Source: Alphaproteobacteria bacterium (GTDB lineage Bacteria > Pseudomonadota > Alphaproteobacteria > Rhodospirillales > WMHbin7). Taken from it: a DNA stretch of 64,000 bases. Below are positions 56,686-64,000 of this stretch, in pieces. The position numbers were made by a program, and so were the translations under genes. Positions within the stretch are counted from its first letter, which is position 1, and each line of letters begins with the position of its first letter. The notes under the pieces are model-generated. The model made no database searches and was not told the DNA's origin. It saw nothing but the letters and a program-made list of their open reading frames with translations. Location of the stretch: contig JADGAX010000001.1 of assembly GCA_015231795.1 (NCBI GenBank), forward strand, positions 372,001 to 436,000. The letters run 5' to 3'.

Positions 56686-57507
56686 TCAACTCTCGTTGAA
56701 ATCGGTTTCCGGCAAAGCGCCGTCGTCATCCTCGCCTTCGGCTTCGCGCTTCTTCTTCTCGACCAGCTTGCAAGAATAGATCGAGATTTCGTAAAGCAGC
56801 ATCATCGGCACGGCCAGCCCGATCTGGCTGATCACGTCGGGCGGAGTCAAGATGGCGGCGGCCACGAAGATCAAGACGATGGCGTAGCGGCGCTTTTCGG
56901 CCAAGCCCTTCGACGTCACCAGCCCCACGCGGGCCATCAAGGTCAGCAGCACCGGAAGCTGGAAGGCGATGCCAAAAGCGAAGATCAGCTTCATCACCAG
57001 CGTCAGATATTCGCCGACCTTGGCTTCCAACTGAATGGGCAATCCACCGTCAAGTGGTTGGGCTTCGAAAGACAGCAGGAACTGCCAGGCCATGGGGATG
57101 ATGAAGTAATAGACCAACGCCGCACCCATCAGGAACAGCAGCGGAGTGGCGAACAAGAACGGCAGGAAGGCCTGGCGTTCGTGCTTGTACAGGCCGGGGG
57201 CTACGAAAGCCCAAAGCTGTCCGGCGAAAACCGGAAACGAGAAGAACAGCGCCGTGAACATGGCGACGCGCACATAGGTAAAGAAGGCTTCGGTCAGCGC
57301 GGTGTAAATCATGCGCCGGTTGCCGCCCATGCTTTCGAAAATATCGGTCAGCGGCTGCACCAGGAAGCCATAGACGTGATTGGCGAAGTAATAGCTGACG
57401 AAGAAGGCGACCACAAAAAAGGCCATCGACCACATCAGACGATTGCGCAGCTCGATCAGATGCTCGAGCAACGGCATCTTCTTTTCGTCGCTGGATTCCT
57501 CGGTCAC
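56686..57507 (-). CDS. tatC: Twin-arginine translocase subunit TatC
   Basis: 273 residues with six helices: [17 protein letters not shown] opens the conserved cytoplasmic start with the invariant Glu, [13 protein letters not shown] marks the fifth loop region. Forms the Tat receptor that recognises RR signal peptides. GTG start overlaps the tatB stop (GTGA). A charged C-terminal tail ([12 protein letters not shown]) extends beyond the last helix. Nine bases separate it from serS. Confidence 0.95.
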
Positions 57508-57893
57508 GACTTGGCCTCAGGCTGTGTCTCTGGCTGGGCGGTAGGTGGTTCGTCCGCCGGGGCATCGCTGGGCGGGGGCAGGACGGCAGCCGCATTGGTT
57601 TGATGGTTTTCGATGGAAAGGGCGCTGGCGACCTCGCCCTTGGGATCGACGGCGCGCTCGATCTCGGCTTGCACATTGACGGTGTTGAAGGCCTGCGCCT
57701 GTTTGCGCAGATCGTCCAATTCCGATTCGCGCATCATGTCGTCGACGCTTTTTTGGAACTCGCCCGCCATCGCGCGCGCTTTGCGGGTCCATTGGCCCAT
57801 CACGCGCAGCACTTTGGGCAGATCCTTGGGGCCGATGACCACGAGCGCGATCACGGCAATCACCGCCACTTCTGAGATATCAACGTCTAACAC
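57504..57893 (-). CDS. tatB: Twin-arginine translocase subunit TatB
   Basis: 129 residues: single N-terminal helix ([21 protein letters not shown]) with conserved Glu and Gly-Pro hinge, amphipathic helix, long Ala/Pro-rich tail. GTG start (57893). Lies between tatA and tatC. Confidence 0.93.
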
Positions 57894-57923
57894 GCTTTGG
57901 CCCGTCCGGTTGGGACCAGGGGA

Positions 57924-58160
57924 TCAGTGCTTGGCCGCTTCGTCCTTTTGAACGGGCGCGGCATTGGCCTGGGCCTGATTGTCGATCGTCTTGGGGGACT
58001 CTTCGGCCTTCGCCTCGTCTTCGTCCTTCAGGCCCGACTTGAACGCCTTGACGCCCTTGGCCATGTCGCCCATCAGGCGCGGCAGCTTGCCCGCTCCGAA
58101 CAGGAGCAGAACGATGATCAGAACGATAACCCAATGCCAAATGCTTCCAAAGCCACCCAT
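57924..58160 (-). CDS. tatA: Twin-arginine translocase subunit TatA
   Basis: 78 residues: helix [20 protein letters not shown] followed by [20 protein letters not shown], the typical TatA hinge and amphipathic helix, then an acidic tail. First gene of tatABC-serS-surE-pcm on the minus strand. Confidence 0.94.
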
Positions 58161-58366: not shown

Positions 58367-58452
58367 AACACAAAACGACCTCAATCGACAATTATAGAAC
58401 AATAACAAACAATAAAACTGCGGCAAAGTCCGCAGGCGCGCTGGAGATGGAG

Positions 58453-59853
58453 ATGAATTTTACACAAGAAGCCGCAAGCGTCCCGCAGGACGTCGCCGAG
58501 AAAATGGCCCGCCATGTCAGTCAGTTGTGGGGGCAACTGACCGAGGTGGCGGGCGACATCGCTACCGTAACCCAGGAATTCAAGCATCAGGCCGACCGTT
58601 TCGGCGGCCTTAAATCGGCGGCCGAGGATCTGTCGCGCACCAACGCGCTGATCGGCGCGTCGGCTGGCGAGGCGCATCAGGTCTCGGAAAACGCGGCCCG
58701 CATGACCCAACAATCCACCCAAACCCTGAAAACGGCGGAATCCGACATCAGGGCCTTGGTCGAAAGCGTCAATCATATCGAGGAAAGGCTGAAGGGGCTT
58801 AGCGCCTCGCTGGCCCGAGTGGACAAGGTGTCGACCGAAATCGAAACCATCGCCCGCCAAACCCGTCTGCTGGCGCTGAACGCCACCATCGAGGCCGCCC
58901 GGGCCGGAGAAATGGGCAAGGGATTCGCCGTCGTGGCCAGCGAGGTCAAGACCTTGGCCGCCCAGACCAGCCAAGCCACCTCATTGATCGCCGAAACGCT
59001 GACCGACCTGTCCAGCTTAAGCGCGCAATTGACCGAGGAAAGCATCACCAGCCGCGAGAGGGCCACTCGCGTTTTGGCCTCGACCGAGGCGCTGGTCAGC
59101 ACGGTGGGCGGGGTCAGCGACAAATTCGCCGAAGTCGACAAGCATGTTTCAGGCATCGCCGACACGACCCAGCATTGCGACCAGGACCGGGCCGTCATGA
59201 GCCAGGCGATCTTGGACATTTCCCAGGACATGGGGCAGGAAAGCCATCATCTGGCCAGCGCCAGCCAGCGCCTGGACAGCCTGTTGTCCAGCGGCGAGGA
59301 GTTGATGTCGCTGGTGGTGGGCCAAGGATTGCCGACGCCGGAAACGCCCTATGTCCAAATCGTCAGGGCGACGGCGGAACTGATCTCGCAGCGTTTCGAA
59401 AAAGCGGTCGCCGACCGGGAAATTTCGCTTGGCGATCTGTTCGACGACAATTACCAGGAAGTTCCGGGCACCAATCCCAAGCAGGTGAAAACCCGCTTTA
59501 CCGATTTTACCGACCGCGTGTTGCCAGAATTCCAAGAACCCATCATCGCGAAGGATGCAAAAATCCTGTTTTCCGCAGCCGTCGACCGCAACGGCTATCT
59601 GCCCACCCACAACAAGAAATATTCGCAGCCCCAGGGCAACGATCCGGTCTGGAATACCGCCAACTGCCGCAACCGCAGAATTTTCAACGATCCGACCGGT
59701 CTGGCCTCGGCCAAGAACACCAAGCCCTTCTTTCTGAAAACCTACAAGCGCGACATGGGCGGCGGCAAGCTGGTGATGTGCAAGGAATGCTCGGCTCCGA
59801 TCATGGTTCAGGGCCGTCATTGGGGCGGCTTGAGACTGGCTTTTCTGCTGTAG
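58453..59853 (+). CDS. Soluble chemoreceptor-like protein with C-terminal sensory domain
   Basis: 466 residues without membrane helix. The middle part has the methyl-accepting signalling tip: [21 protein letters not shown]-type text (cited: [20 protein letters not shown]) and [18 protein letters not shown], flanked by long heptads. After residue 330 a separate domain follows with [45 protein letters not shown] and a [10 protein letters not shown] ending; several Cys/His suggest a redox or metal-binding sensor. ATG at 58453 is preceded by GGAG at 6 bases; 58447 is adjacent and less good. Its end overlaps the convergent ArsR gene by 53 bases. Confidence 0.85.
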
Positions 59854-60505
59854 AAACTTCTACGGGAAGACCAGAAGCCCGCCATTCCGGCATGCCGTCT
59901 TGCAGTCGGCTGGCAGGCAGGCCCTGCTCGCGAAGGAACGCCACCGCCTCATAGGCCAGGACGCAATACGGTCCCCGGCAATAAGCGACGATTTGGCTGC
60001 CTTTCGGCAGATCCTTCAGCCTTCTTTTCAGGTCCTTCAGCGGAACGTTCAAACTGCCGGGAATGTGCCCGGCGGCAAATTCCTGTTCAGGCCGAACGTC
60101 AAGGACGGTCACCAACCCATCCTTCATGCGCTGGACGAGATCGCTCCTGGTAACAGGTTCCAGCCGATCCTTTTCCTTGAAATAACCTTGGACGACCAGC
60201 CCGACCTCGGCCACATGCCGCTCGGCGGTCTGGCGCAGGGCCGCCAGCAAAGCCAGAACGTCGTCGCCGGACAGATAATAAAGCACCTGTTGCCCCGACT
60301 TCCTGGATAGGACCAAACCAGAACGCCTGAGCGCGTGAAGATGCTGCGACGCGTTGGCGATGGCAAGTCCTGCCGCCTTGGCCAATTCATCGACGCTGCG
60401 CTCGCCTTGGGCGATCAGCTCCAGCAGATCAAGCCGGTGCGGGTTCGACAAGGCCTTGCCCAACACGGCGAACTGTTCAAGCAGCTTCAGCTTCGGGCTA
60501 ACCAT
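59801..60505 (-). CDS. ArsR-family regulator fused to rhodanese domain
   Basis: 234 residues: winged-helix ArsR domain (residues 1-100; [40 protein letters not shown]), linker, then a rhodanese domain ([36 protein letters not shown]). The rhodanese Cys of CRGPYC is the likely site of persulfide; the HTH part has no Cys, so it does not sense through a dithiol as BigR/SqrR do. It probably represses its own gene and the divergent TSUP operon until reactive sulfur appears. ATG at 60505; longer reading unsupported. Confidence 0.85.
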
Positions 60506-60695
60506 GCCATCTCTCTTTGTTGATTTGACATTATCTTCCGCTTTCAGAGCGAGCTTCAAGAAGCGTCTTTGGTTCCGCACCTTGATTTAGGCCTAAAGGC
60601 ATGCGCTTGACGTCATTCATGGTCGATCGCATTGCGACAAAGGCAAGTCTGCCTCCCCTACCATCTTCGTAAAAGCACAGAGGCAACGACCTCGC

Positions 60696-60743
60696 TTGAC
60701 AGTCTCGCGCCTAAATTATAGTATTCAATTGAATTGTAGAATA
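60696..60743 (+). promoter_or_regulatory. Promoter with palindromic operator for the TSUP-DsrE operon
   Basis: TTGACA (60696-60701) is followed by an AT-rich -10 zone (TATAGT at 60717-60722 or TAGTAT at 60719-60724). Over and after it lies ATTCAATTGAAT (60723-60734), a 12-base perfect palindrome; TATTC and GAATA also frame 60722-60743. The overlap of promoter and palindrome suits repression by the divergently encoded ArsR protein. Confidence 0.5.
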
Positions 60744-60762
60744 TCAGCAAAGGTGCTGGATC

Positions 60763-61557
60763 ATGTCGCCATTAGCCATTCTAGCCGGACTCGCAACCGG
60801 CCTTATGCTGGGCCTGTTCGGAAGCGGCGGTTCGATCATCACACTGCCTGCCCTGCTCTATCTGCTGGACGTGCCGACGAAATCGGCCATTGCCATGAGT
60901 TTGGGGATCGTTGGCGTTACGGCGGCCATCTCCGCCGTCACCCACTGGCGGCGCGGCAACGTCGACATGCCCGTTGCCGCCGTCTTCGGCTTGTTCGGCG
61001 TGGTGGGAACCTATGGAGGCGCAAAATTGGGCGTAATCACGCCCGATTTGGTACAGCTCTTGTTGTTCGCCGCCATCATGTACGCGGCCTCCTGGCGCAT
61101 GTTCAAACCAGGGCATGTGGAACCGAAAACAGCCAACCTGATCAGGCTCGACTGTCAAGGAACTGCCTCCTTGATCTGCTTCGATTACACGCGGGTTGGG
61201 CATGTGGCCTTGCATGGCATCGTCGTTGGCGTCCTAACCGGCATGGTGGGCGTGGGGGGTGGATTCCTGATCGTGCCAGCCTTGGTTTTGTTGTCCGGCT
61301 TGCCGATGAAGCAAGCCACGGGAACCTCTTTGGTCATTGTGTCCGCAAAATCATTTGCCGGTTTCGCGGGTTATTTGGGAGCCATCGAGATCGACTACAA
61401 CCTGATGGCCATCTTTACGGCCATCGCCATCGCCGGAAGTTTCGCCGGAACCGCCATCTCGAAACATCTGTCGGCGGAAAAGCTGAAAAAAGGATTTGCC
61501 GTCTTTTTGGTCGTGGTGGCCAGTTATATCGTCATCAAGGAAACGATGCTGGGGTAA
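60763..61557 (+). CDS. TSUP-family exporter (TauE/SafE type), second copy
   Basis: 264 residues with about eight helices and the two glycine-rich segments GLFGSGGSIITLPALLYLL and GMVGVGGGFLIVPALVLLSG. Distinct from the copy at 2156-3106: no signal peptide and a shorter middle loop. Expected to export or take up sulfur anions (sulfite, thiosulfate) across the inner membrane. First gene of a run of five genes with DsrE and a cysteine desulfurase; behind the ArsR-type operator. Confidence 0.88.
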   Translation: MSPLAILAGLATGLMLGLFGSGGSIITLPALLYLLDVPTKSAIAMSLGIVGVTAAISAVTHWRRGNVDMPVAAVFGLFGVVGTYGGAKLGVITPDLVQLLLFAAIMYAASWRMFKPGHVEPKTANLIRLDCQGTASLICFDYTRVGHVALHGIVVGVLTGMVGVGGGFLIVPALVLLSGLPMKQATGTSLVIVSAKSFAGFAGYLGAIEIDYNLMAIFTAIAIAGSFAGTAISKHLSAEKLKKGFAVFLVVVASYIVIKETMLG

Positions 61558-61559
61558 GC

Positions 61560-61856
61560 ATGAAAATCACCATTGTCTCGAAGAAGCCGCCCGGTGGTCG
61601 CTGCACGCTGTATGGCTATTACGCCCAGGTCGTCGCAGATGCCTTGGGCGGAGCCATAGAAACGACCTTTCCGGGGCCAGAGGATGAGGTCCAGCCCCCA
61701 GGATTCATGCTTGAAGACCGTCTGATCATACCCGCAGACGGCTTGATCCTATCGCCATCCGACGTGCATGATGGGCTTGGCAAGGACGGTTCGCCAAGTC
61801 TGCTGGCGCGACTGGAAGAGGCCGAAGCGCGTTTCATGGAGGAATGCGACAAATGA
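61560..61856 (+). CDS. Small protein of unknown function in sulfur operon
   Basis: 98 residues: KITIVSKKPPGGRCTLYGYY at the start, a middle with two short hydrophobic parts and FPGPEDEVQPPGF, and a helical end with a second Cys (EECDK). Starts two bases after the exporter stop; its stop overlaps the DsrE start (ATGA). Cys15 in a PGGRC turn could carry sulfur, but I recognise no family. Confidence 0.65.
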   Translation: MKITIVSKKPPGGRCTLYGYYAQVVADALGGAIETTFPGPEDEVQPPGFMLEDRLIIPADGLILSPSDVHDGLGKDGSPSLLARLEEAEARFMEECDK

Positions 61857-62206
61857 AAGCCGTCATCATTCTCAACGAAGGCCCCTATGGTTCGGAACGC
61901 AGCTACAACGGCATGCGGCTGGCCAATTCGCTGCGCAAGCACGATCCGCAAGGCGTCGTCATGGTTTTTCTGATGGGCGACGCCGTCAGTTGCGCCCATG
62001 CCGGACAGAAGCCGCCGGAGGGATTTTACAACATCGGCAAAATGATCCATCGCTTGATCGACAGCGGCGGGCAGGTTTTGCTGTGCGGCACTTGCATGGA
62101 TGCGCGCGGCCTTGCTGAAAGCGAACTCGTGGCAAACGCCAAGCGCAGCACCTTGGACGAGCTTACCATCATTACCCTCGCCGCCGACAAGGTCTTGACG
62201 TTCTGA
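61853..62206 (+). CDS. DsrE-family sulfur-transfer protein
   Basis: 117 residues of the DsrE/DsrF/YchN fold: AVIILNEGPYGSERSYNGM at the start, VVMVFLMGDAVSCA, and the key LLCGTCMDARG near residue 80 with two Cys, the likely persulfide-carrying site. Such proteins relay sulfur between enzymes. Overlaps both neighbours by one to four bases, so it is translated together with the small protein and cysteine desulfurase. Confidence 0.88.
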   Translation: MKAVIILNEGPYGSERSYNGMRLANSLRKHDPQGVVMVFLMGDAVSCAHAGQKPPEGFYNIGKMIHRLIDSGGQVLLCGTCMDARGLAESELVANAKRSTLDELTIITLAADKVLTF

Positions 62207-63339
62207 TGGACGATCCGGTTTATCTCGACTTCAACGCCACCACGCCGGTCGATCCGGATGTCGTGGAAGCGATGCAGCCCTTCTTTCACGCCCATTTCGG
62301 CAACCCTTCCAGTGGCCATGTCTTCGGACTGAGAGCCAGGAATGCCGTTGATAGGGCGCGTGAGGAGGTGGCCGCCCTGCTCAATGCCGATGCGCAAGAA
62401 ATCTTCTTCACCAGCGGCGGCACCGAAGCCAACAACATCACCATCTTGGGAACCGCTTGCGCAAATGAGGTCAAGGGGCGGATGCTGCACTCCGCCATCG
62501 AGCATCCATCCGTGACCAATCCCTGCCGCTTTCTGGCCCTCAAGGGCTGGGCGATCCAAACGCTTCCCGTCGATGAACATGGCATCGTCTCCCTTGCCGC
62601 CGCCGAGAATGCGCTTGATGCTGGCATCGCCTTGCTGTCGGTCATGCACGCCAACAACGAGACCGGCTCCTTGCAGCCGATCCGTGAACTGACGCGGCTG
62701 GCCCATGCGAAAGGGATCATGACGCATTGCGACGCCGCGCAATCCATCGCCAAATTGCCGATTGACGTCAAGGAACTGGGCATCGACGCCCTGTCTTTGG
62801 CGGGTCACAAAATGTACGCCCCCAAGGGAATCGGCGCATTGTACATCAGCAAAGGCGCGCCCATCGCGCCGATCAATTTCGGTGGCGGACAGGAACGCGG
62901 CATCAGGCCCGGCACGGAAAACGTGGCCCTGATCGTGGGGCTGGGCAAGGCCTGCGCCTTGGCTGCGGGCAGGCAGGCCGAGGATGCCAAGCGCCTGTGG
63001 AATCTGAAAGATCGCCTGTGGTCGCGCTTGCTGTCCGGCGTTCCAGGATTGTCGCTCAACGGAAGCCTGGAAATATCATTGCCCAATACGCTGAACGTGA
63101 GCTTTCCTGCTGTGGCTGGCAACGCCTTGCTGAACGCCGCCCCTGCCATCGCCGCCTCAACCGGATCGGCTTGCCATGACGGCAAAGAAGCTCCATCCTC
63201 GGTCCTGACCGCCATGGGATTAAACCGGGACAGAGCTTTGGGCGCCGTCCGGTTGACGCTGGGGCGAACGACCACCGAAAAGGACATCGATGCCGCTGCG
63301 AACGCCCTCGTCAAAGCCTGGAGGCAACTTGCCGGATAA
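62206..63339 (+). CDS. Cysteine desulfurase (NifS/IscS family)
   Basis: 377 residues. PLP enzyme that frees sulfur from cysteine as an enzyme persulfide. Marks are YLDFNATTPVDPDVVEAM, FTSGGTEANNITILG, SVMHANNETGSLQPI, the PLP Lys in SLAGHKMYAPKGIG, GGGQERGIRPGTEN, and the active Cys in ASTGSACHDGKEAPSSVL. Start overlaps the DsrE stop by one base. Not next to isc or nif genes; the operon context suggests it serves persulfide traffic with DsrE. Confidence 0.93.
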   Translation: MDDPVYLDFNATTPVDPDVVEAMQPFFHAHFGNPSSGHVFGLRARNAVDRAREEVAALLNADAQEIFFTSGGTEANNITILGTACANEVKGRMLHSAIEHPSVTNPCRFLALKGWAIQTLPVDEHGIVSLAAAENALDAGIALLSVMHANNETGSLQPIRELTRLAHAKGIMTHCDAAQSIAKLPIDVKELGIDALSLAGHKMYAPKGIGALYISKGAPIAPINFGGGQERGIRPGTENVALIVGLGKACALAAGRQAEDAKRLWNLKDRLWSRLLSGVPGLSLNGSLEISLPNTLNVSFPAVAGNALLNAAPAIAASTGSACHDGKEAPSSVLTAMGLNRDRALGAVRLTLGRTTTEKDIDAAANALVKAWRQLAG

Positions 63340-64000
63340 GGAAAGCCAAGCGCCCATCCTGGCGCTCAAGAATTCGCAAGCGCCTTCCGTCTTTGAACCG
63401 GCCAATCTGTTGCGCGAAGCTAGGCGTCAGCGCGAGCTTGACCATGCCGAAGTGCCCGAGCTTTGCCTGCTCGATCCCGACGGCGACATCGTGCGTTTCC
63501 TGAAACGAACGGGACAGGCCGAAGCGGTTTCCCATTGGGCCTGCTACCATTCGCAAATGTGGCGCTTTACCTGGGAAGGCCAAGAGTTCGGCATTGTCGG
63601 CTGCGCCGTCGGGGCGCCCTATGCCGTCCTGGTGGCCGAACAAATGTTCGCCAGCGGCTGCCGCTTTCTGATCAGCATCACTTCTTCGGGACGAATTGCG
63701 CCCCTGCCCCACTCCCCTTGCTTCATCTTGATCGAGCAAGCGCTTAGGGATGAAGGAACCAGCTACCATTATCTGCCGCCATCACGCCATGTCGAGGCGG
63801 ACGCGCTTGTTTTGGAACGGCTTGCTTCCTTGAAAGAAGTGCGCAGGGGAACCACCTGGACCACCGACGCCCCCTATAGGGAAACCGAAGAAGCCATCGC
63901 CGCCCACAGGAAGGATGGCATCCTCGCCGTCGAGATGGAGGCGGCGGCGCTCTACGCCTTTTCAAAGGCGCGGAACTGTCCCCTGGTCTGCTTTGCCCAT
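63290..64000 (+). CDS. Nucleoside phosphorylase (PNP/UDP family), 3'-truncated by window end
   Basis: 237 codons are visible, open to the edge. Marks: ANLLREARRQRELDHAEVP and CLLDPDGDIVRFLKRTG at the start, FGIVGCAVGAPYAVLVAEQM, and the purine-binding AVEMEAAALYAFSKAR near the end; also WTTDAPYRETEEA. This family cleaves ribonucleosides, S-methylthioadenosine or related with phosphate. ATG at 63290 lies inside the end of the desulfurase gene, 50 bases before its stop, with AAGGA upstream; a TTG at 63329 after GGAGG is an alternative. Last visible member of the sulfur operon. Confidence 0.8.
   Translation, partial: MPLRTPSSKPGGNLPDKESQAPILALKNSQAPSVFEPANLLREARRQRELDHAEVPELCLLDPDGDIVRFLKRTGQAEAVSHWACYHSQMWRFTWEGQEFGIVGCAVGAPYAVLVAEQMFASGCRFLISITSSGRIAPLPHSPCFILIEQALRDEGTSYHYLPPSRHVEADALVLERLASLKEVRRGTTWTTDAPYRETEEAIAAHRKDGILAVEMEAAALYAFSKARNCPLVCFAH

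Follow-up and report, generated by a model that had tools for sequence, protein, structure and literature searches.

Why should a protein with a nucleoside-phosphorylase fold be encoded among sulfur-handling genes in an alphaproteobacterial operon? The question is raised by the end of a 64,000-nucleotide stretch of contig JADGAX010000001.1 (hereafter the window), where an NP-I protein (PNP_UDP_1) follows a predicted TSUP exporter, a 98-residue protein (U98), a DsrE/DsrF-family protein and a cysteine desulfurase, all divergent from an ArsR-rhodanese regulator. The initial annotation, made from this DNA alone, proposed sulfur trafficking, with a phosphorylase salvaging sulfur from a nucleoside such as methylthioadenosine (MTA). 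In this analysis the uncharacterised NP-I family could be placed in the phosphorylase superfamily and no more closely. Our best explanation of the whole, to which we assign a probability of roughly 40%, is a reactive-sulfur response operon that includes a hydrolase for a nucleoside derived from S-adenosylmethionine (SAM).

The NP-I protein matches the PNP_UDP_1 domain with 88.6 bits (cut-off 25.1), and the model of an orthologue (locus L049; pLDDT 94.6) has the NP-I fold, aligning with 1odi at Z 24.2 and a root-mean-square deviation (rmsd) of 2.8 over 218 residues. Across 40 aligned sequences, Glu179-Met180-Glu181, with the ribose-binding E181, and Ser90 are kept. The positions of DeoD Gly20, Arg24, Arg43 and Arg87, which we take to be phosphate-binding residues, are occupied by Pro (39/40), Ile/Leu/Val/Met (40/40), Tyr (39/40) and Ser (38/40), with a few Phe, His or Thr. 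When profiles are aligned with those of the solved uridine phosphorylase, MTA phosphorylase and purine nucleoside phosphorylase (PNP), the arginine-to-serine change is seen there as well. Because the phosphate-binding residues are missing throughout the 40 sequences, we lean slightly towards a nucleosidase rather than a phosphorylase, MTA phosphorylase included. An Asp stands at the position of Glu12 of the MTA/S-adenosylhomocysteine nucleosidase (MTAN) in the 40 sequences, within a stretch of uncertain N-terminal alignment.

The MTA phosphorylase of the initial annotation, which would serve sulfur salvage, can draw on the PNP_UDP_1 match and on the presence of a Sulfolobus MTA phosphorylase among the closest solved relatives. 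Its phosphate site is dismantled, however, the catalytic Asp is replaced by Asn, and the part of the protein encoded in the window (237 of 273 amino acids) scores below the cut-offs of all nine NCBIfam models listed (best 29.8 bits against 230). With no other methionine-salvage gene recognised within the operon, we regard this assignment as very improbable.

The link between the NP-I family and SAM chemistry runs through neighbouring and fused methyltransferases. Relatives were collected with a profile from a ten-orthologue alignment in a species-level collection of bacterial and archaeal genomes, giving at least 581 confirmed loci; the neighbourhood counts below cover the best 80 of these and thus lean to close homologues. 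By their record titles, these 80 come from Proteobacteria, Chloroflexi, Bacteroidetes, Actinobacteria, Acidobacteria, Lentisphaerae, haloarchaea and others. Three single reading frames join a methyltransferase to an NP-I domain, in both domain orders: the methyltransferase lies ahead of the NP-I domain in an Acidobacteria metagenome-assembled genome (MAG; L060:2568-4013) and behind it in a Saprospiraceae MAG (L067:2025-3428) and a Chitinophagaceae MAG (L126:2802-4175). The fused methyltransferases are of one type (MT11), and two further types neighbour NP-I as separate genes. Since different methyltransferases share the product S-adenosylhomocysteine (SAH), SAH is proposed as the substrate, and we tentatively suggest that the nucleosidase acts on SAH or another SAM-derived nucleoside.

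Neighbour excess was scored as matches within 4 kb of the NP-I gene against matches at 4-10 kb; several contigs are short, and per-kilobase lengths were used. Where a query matched the locus from which it came, that match was discounted (L060 for MT11, L079 for MT9, L059 for SQR, L105 for PDO and MFS). All three methyltransferase types are enriched (MT_L010, 14 versus 2; MT11, 10 versus 0; MT9, 8 versus 1), as are ArsR-rhodanese-like (25 versus 1; 22/80 loci), DsrE (17 versus 0; 16/80 loci) and desulfurase matches (10 versus 0; 10/80 loci), together with MFS transporters (17 versus 1), persulfide-dioxygenase-like genes (11 versus 3) and FA-hydroxylase-like genes (7 versus 1). Clear excess was not seen for a fourth methyltransferase query, MT7 (0 versus 1), for the single rhodanese query RHOD_L043 (1 versus 2), the window TSUP query (1 versus 0) or SQR (4 versus 1, p 0.16), and a YeeE query gave zero matches around the 80 loci. 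Some SAM methyltransferase lies within 4 kb in 30/80 loci, some sulfur gene, the regulator counted, in 33/80, and one or the other in 45/80; in 15/80, counting the fused L067 and L126, a methyltransferase stands on the same strand at most 350 nt away. A membrane protein of about 200 residues, DoxX/DoxD-like by eye, adjoins NP-I in L054, L064, L096, L108 and L120; no NCBIfam match was found for the L108 copy.

The regulator carries an ArsR winged helix (NF033788, 72.2 bits; cut-off 55) fused to a rhodanese domain, and its only cysteines are C176 and C181 of the rhodanese CRGPYC. The pair CRG[PA]xxC is present in 14/14 proteins (the regulator and 13 relatives); additional cysteines among the relatives lie in the ArsR part in L083 and L089 and behind the rhodanese domain in L057 and L105. 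SqrR is described as sensing through a pair of conserved cysteines, and BigR through Cys42 and Cys108 (PMC9774590). Two such conserved cysteines were not found in the ArsR part of the window regulator, which scores 44.1 bits against the BigR model (cut-off 155); if it is a persulfide sensor, it therefore senses elsewhere. Neither the gene cluster nor an ArsR-rhodanese fusion sensor is named in the titles and abstract openings of the open-licence papers that literature searches listed.

Between the regulator and TSUP genes lie 257 bp, with a sigma-70-like promoter on the plus strand (60696..60724; TTGACA at 60696-60701, a 17-nt spacer and TAGTAT at 60719-60724) and then an operator-like 20-bp palindrome, ATTCAATTGAATTGTAGAAT (60723..60742, plus strand), which covers the end of the −10 element and the start region. 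The 20-bp palindrome ATTCAATTnATnnATTGAAT is found in the divergent region of 10/10 loci inspected, which were chosen by hand (the window, L009, L010, L049, L038, L039, L043, L078, L083 and L089), and is imperfect in L038. The genome of the window has one copy within three mismatches. In a held-out test on 76 of the 80 loci (training loci L049, L078, L083 and L089 excluded), a search within 7 kb of NP-I, with a matrix built from the inspected loci, found the palindrome in 12/19 loci with an ArsR-rhodanese match against 2/57 without (Fisher 1.2e-7; this and the binomial values assume independent loci, which these are not fully). Shuffled regions gave 3/228, and stricter matrix scores gave 11/19 versus 1/57 and then 10/19 versus 1/57. 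Records from Chloroflexi, Bacteroidetes and Lentisphaerae are among the matches. The palindrome is a putative operator, and persulfide the candidate signal of the regulator.

A number of observations weigh against this reading, beginning with the active site. The position of Asp204 in E. coli PNP and Asp197 in MTAN is Asn in 40/40 sequences, and this replacement of the catalytic Asp speaks for a 6-oxopurine or pyrimidine base rather than adenine; the genome also encodes a complete AhcY, by which SAH is usually processed. For these two reasons, we have more confidence in 'nucleosidase' than in any particular substrate. In addition, the N-terminal alignment near Gly20 and Arg24 is uncertain by a few residues, a methyltransferase is not present in the window operon, and a close homologue of the operon methyltransferase of G001, a genome of the same genus, was not found elsewhere in the window genome (best 38% over part). 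The Asn, along with a uridine-phosphorylase-like RDEGTSYHY, suggests a 6-oxopurine or pyrimidine base, as would suit a protein that cleaves nucleosides bearing thio or methylthio groups, such as tRNA degradation would release, in an operon that recovers or exports the sulfur; the association with a desulfurase and DsrE points the same way. Yet 40/40 sequences lack the Gln/Arg loop that uridine phosphorylase has, none of the operon genes was recognised as a nucleoside kinase, thiouracil desulfidase or nucleoside transporter, and the methyltransferase fusions would be left without explanation. We consider cleavage of thio-nucleosides distinctly unlikely.

Further contrary points come from the operator and the neighbourhood. 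The palindrome falls below threshold in 7/19 held-out ArsR-rhodanese loci, including the haloarchaeal L068 and L091, where the ArsR matches are also divergent and which lie outside the ten inspected loci. In 35/80 loci no methyltransferase or sulfur gene was scored within 4 kb, among them L060 and L079, which do have methyltransferases, left out of the scoring because they supplied queries. Such loci, and the many gene orders, would be expected of a shared island whose genes answer one signal and whose NP-I protein has no biochemical connection with sulfur or with methyl transfer; against this stand the fusions in both orders and the close same-strand methyltransferases in 15/80 loci, and we think it unlikely while granting it a chance of some substance.

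Three loci have different neighbours instead, which also count against our reading. In L050 (9288-9977) and L108 (11403-12164), an arsenosugar-type glycosyltransferase (TIGR04282; 147.2 and 135.4 bits, cut-off 134) lies near NP-I, and in L093 (8760-9995; Methylobacterium sp. J-077) SelD, the selenide, water dikinase, is encoded directly upstream of the NP-I gene. With the ArsR family of the regulator, these neighbours would fit an arsenic or selenium response in which regulator, methyltransferase and NP-I protein handle methylation of either element. The ArsR part lacks metalloid-binding cysteines in the window protein and in 11/13 relatives, however, and genes for DsrE, desulfurase and persulfide-dioxygenase-like proteins are among the recurrent neighbours; such a response seems improbable to us. 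Among the titles listed by a literature search, none names an arsenosugar-linked nucleoside phosphorylase step.

All six window genes were confirmed with the orientation and tight junctions first described. The regulator gene (59801..60505, minus strand) encodes 234 amino acids from ATG 60505 in a frame open to GTG 60580. The ATG is the likely start, because in L010, L038 and L039 the homology sets in at residues 25-27 of the longer version; in L043 it sets in at residue 16, and the sister genome G003, of the same genus, aligns over the full length. On the plus strand, the gene for the predicted TSUP/TauE-type sulfur-compound exporter (60763..61557, 264 aa; PF01925, E 7.6e-49) ends at 61557, just ahead of the U98 ATG at 61560. 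The U98 gene (61560..61856) overlaps the DsrE gene (61853..62206) by 4 nt (ATGA, 61853-61856), and the latter overlaps the desulfurase gene (62206..63339) by 1 nt (TGATG, 62206). The desulfurase and NP-I reading frames also overlap. For the NP-I gene, on the same strand, TTG 63329, preceded by GGAGG, is a more probable start than ATG 63290, from which the frame is open; GGAGGCAACTTG in this start region is also present in G003. The window end truncates the gene (63329..64000), which continues in the own genome to a stop at L004:8111 (64111 on the window scale) and is followed in the same operon by an alpha/beta hydrolase gene (L004:8127-9026, past the window end). The operon is flanked by a gene for a chemoreceptor-like protein with an MCPsignal domain (58447-59853) and, at 56686-58160, by what by eye are presumably tatA-tatB-tatC-like genes.

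The exact gene set is young and its core is old. The full set was found in two genomes of one genus, the second being G003, with identical order and protein identities of 90-98%. In G001 the order is TSUP-U98-methyltransferase-NP-I-hydrolase, and in L049, from another proteobacterial MAG, TSUP-U98-methyltransferase-NP-I, with the methyltransferase in both cases in the position of DsrE and the desulfurase. A U98 match was not found in G002 (same genus; 81% complete). At class level, NP-I matches with E ≤0.001 occur in 22/385 genomes, and seven besides the own genome have orthologues at 53-62%. A relative of the window TSUP occurs near NP-I in 1/80 loci; L058 has another TSUP-like gene, noted by eye and missed by the query. 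The divergent region of G001 holds two long hairpin-like inverted repeats (L010:8145-8455), by eye resembling a miniature inverted-repeat transposable element. Three elements of the initial annotation are supported: sulfur trafficking, a common regulator and a gene association that recurs across genomes. The core (regulator, DsrE, desulfurase and NP-I gene) is neither scattered nor without common control, contrary to the outcome that would have refuted that annotation; this does not extend to the exact set, with TSUP in 1/80 loci and U98 rare. We hold it very probable that the operon is real and under shared regulation.

U98 is a real gene, as judged from its conservation (90% identity in G003, 60% in G001 and 51-54% in L049) and a dN/dS of 0.25 against G003. 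It occurs in 4/100 relatives, the own genome counted and one of the four being a 41-residue remnant, and in 3/398 genomes of the phylum: the own, the same remnant and an MFS-fused domain. The remnant, in G021 (L008/L011; L008:1501-1623), spans 41 residues of a 45-residue frame, is not counted as a gene and adjoins a peptidyl-prolyl isomerase-like frame. The fused domain, in G804, lies at the C-terminus of an MFS transporter (L134:1423-3132, minus strand), next to TSUP-like and rhodanese-like frames. Cys15, in PPGGRC, and Cys96 are invariant in four free-standing copies, and the fused domain retains the first only.

The U98 model, which rests on two sequences, is beta-alpha-beta-beta-beta-alpha-alpha, a predicted thioredoxin-like fold (pLDDT 76.8). 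Three of its first six ranked folds are 2fa8, 2obk and 2npb, with SelW or selenium-binding titles (Z 5.4-5.5, rmsd 3.2-3.4, 73-76 residues aligned), a range that chance reaches; 3dex (Z 5.8) and 2ojl (Z 5.5), whose titles are silent, we take to be SelW-related. Foldseek gave only matches at E 0.03-0.2, mostly to glutathione S-transferase family chains, with mouse SelW at rank 19. Membership of SelW/Rdx, to which inspection by eye and the fold ranking had pointed, was rejected: a Pfam match was found in 0/4 copies, no useful PDB sequence match was obtained, and comparison with five Rdx proteins (from seven loci, two with in-frame TGA set aside) gave an hhalign probability of 0.2% at low power (Neff 1.6 and 1.9). 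U98 appears weakly thioredoxin/SelW-like. The initial annotation raised a sulfur carrier, which the unvarying Cys15 and the thioredoxin-like model make possible; our working guess is a thioredoxin-like carrier with a single cysteine.

The closest solved relative of the DsrE/DsrF-family protein is YchN (1jx7); it contains CGTCMDARG and scores 28.7 bits against the TusD model TIGR03012 (cut-off 89.25). The NifS/IscS-like desulfurase (377 aa, Aminotran_5 domain) has a cysteine within STGSAC that aligns with the active-site Cys loop of IscS (4r5f), and it falls below the curated equivalogs (NifS, 427.2 against 530.75 bits; IscS, 368.5 against 643.2).

Taken together, we envisage the ArsR-rhodanese protein as a repressor bound to the palindrome over the promoter. 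Its C176/C181 pair would probably catch sulfide-derived sulfane sulfur, leading to release from the DNA. The derepressed operon would then supply the TSUP exporter, a persulfide relay (desulfurase, YchN-like DsrE and perhaps U98) and the NP-I-fold hydrolase. This last most likely cuts the N-glycosidic bond of a nucleoside formed in SAM-dependent sulfur methylation, with SAH as the first substrate candidate; in the window genome, it would serve methyltransferases encoded outside the operon, or act on a related nucleoside. A wider proposal, which we advance with some doubt, is that the NP-I subfamily (at least 581 loci) is a phosphorylase turned nucleosidase for reactive-sulfur methylation, controlled by a rhodanese-domain one-component sensor through an operator shared across phyla. 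If true, a dedicated by-product enzyme would operate in sulfide stress and in sulfur methylation, from which methanethiol (MeSH) and dimethylsulfide arise; persulfide sensing would gain a new mode; a single operator and a single protein family would make both traceable in genomes; and the NP-I family would gain a testable function.

Known systems offer comparisons for several of these parts. The regulator resembles the persulfide-sensing repressors SqrR, BigR and YgaV in its ArsR fold and sulfur-linked targets. YgaV is reported to be co-transcribed with the rhodanese YgaP (PMC9774250), whereas here the rhodanese is fused to an ArsR part that in the window protein has no cysteine. SelW/Rdx proteins rank among the top folds for the U98 model and, like U98, have a Cys just ahead of helix 1; U98 differs from them in lacking CxxC/U and a sequence-profile match. 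The NP-I protein shares its fold and the ribose-binding EME motif with the phosphorylases E. coli DeoD and Udp and T. thermophilus PNP (1odi); it differs in the lost phosphate residues, a changed base pocket with an invariant Asn and Trp-Thr-Thr-Asp, the methyltransferase fusions and a conserved N-terminal extension (about residues 22-50). With the MTA/SAH nucleosidase of E. coli, Mtn, it has in common the NP-I fold, an expected hydrolase activity and an acidic residue at the Glu12 position, whereas Asp197 is Asn here; an MTA/SAH-nucleosidase model is absent from the nine NCBIfam models listed. MddA, MddH, MddM1/M2 and TMT1A/B are described as SAM-dependent H2S/MeSH S-methyltransferases, and mdd genes are reported to be induced by H2S or MeSH (PMC12904073, whose main text does not contain 'nucleosid', 'phosphorylase' or 'gene cluster'). 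Likened by description rather than by sequence, these S-methyltransferases are the type of partner that we propose for the NP-I protein.

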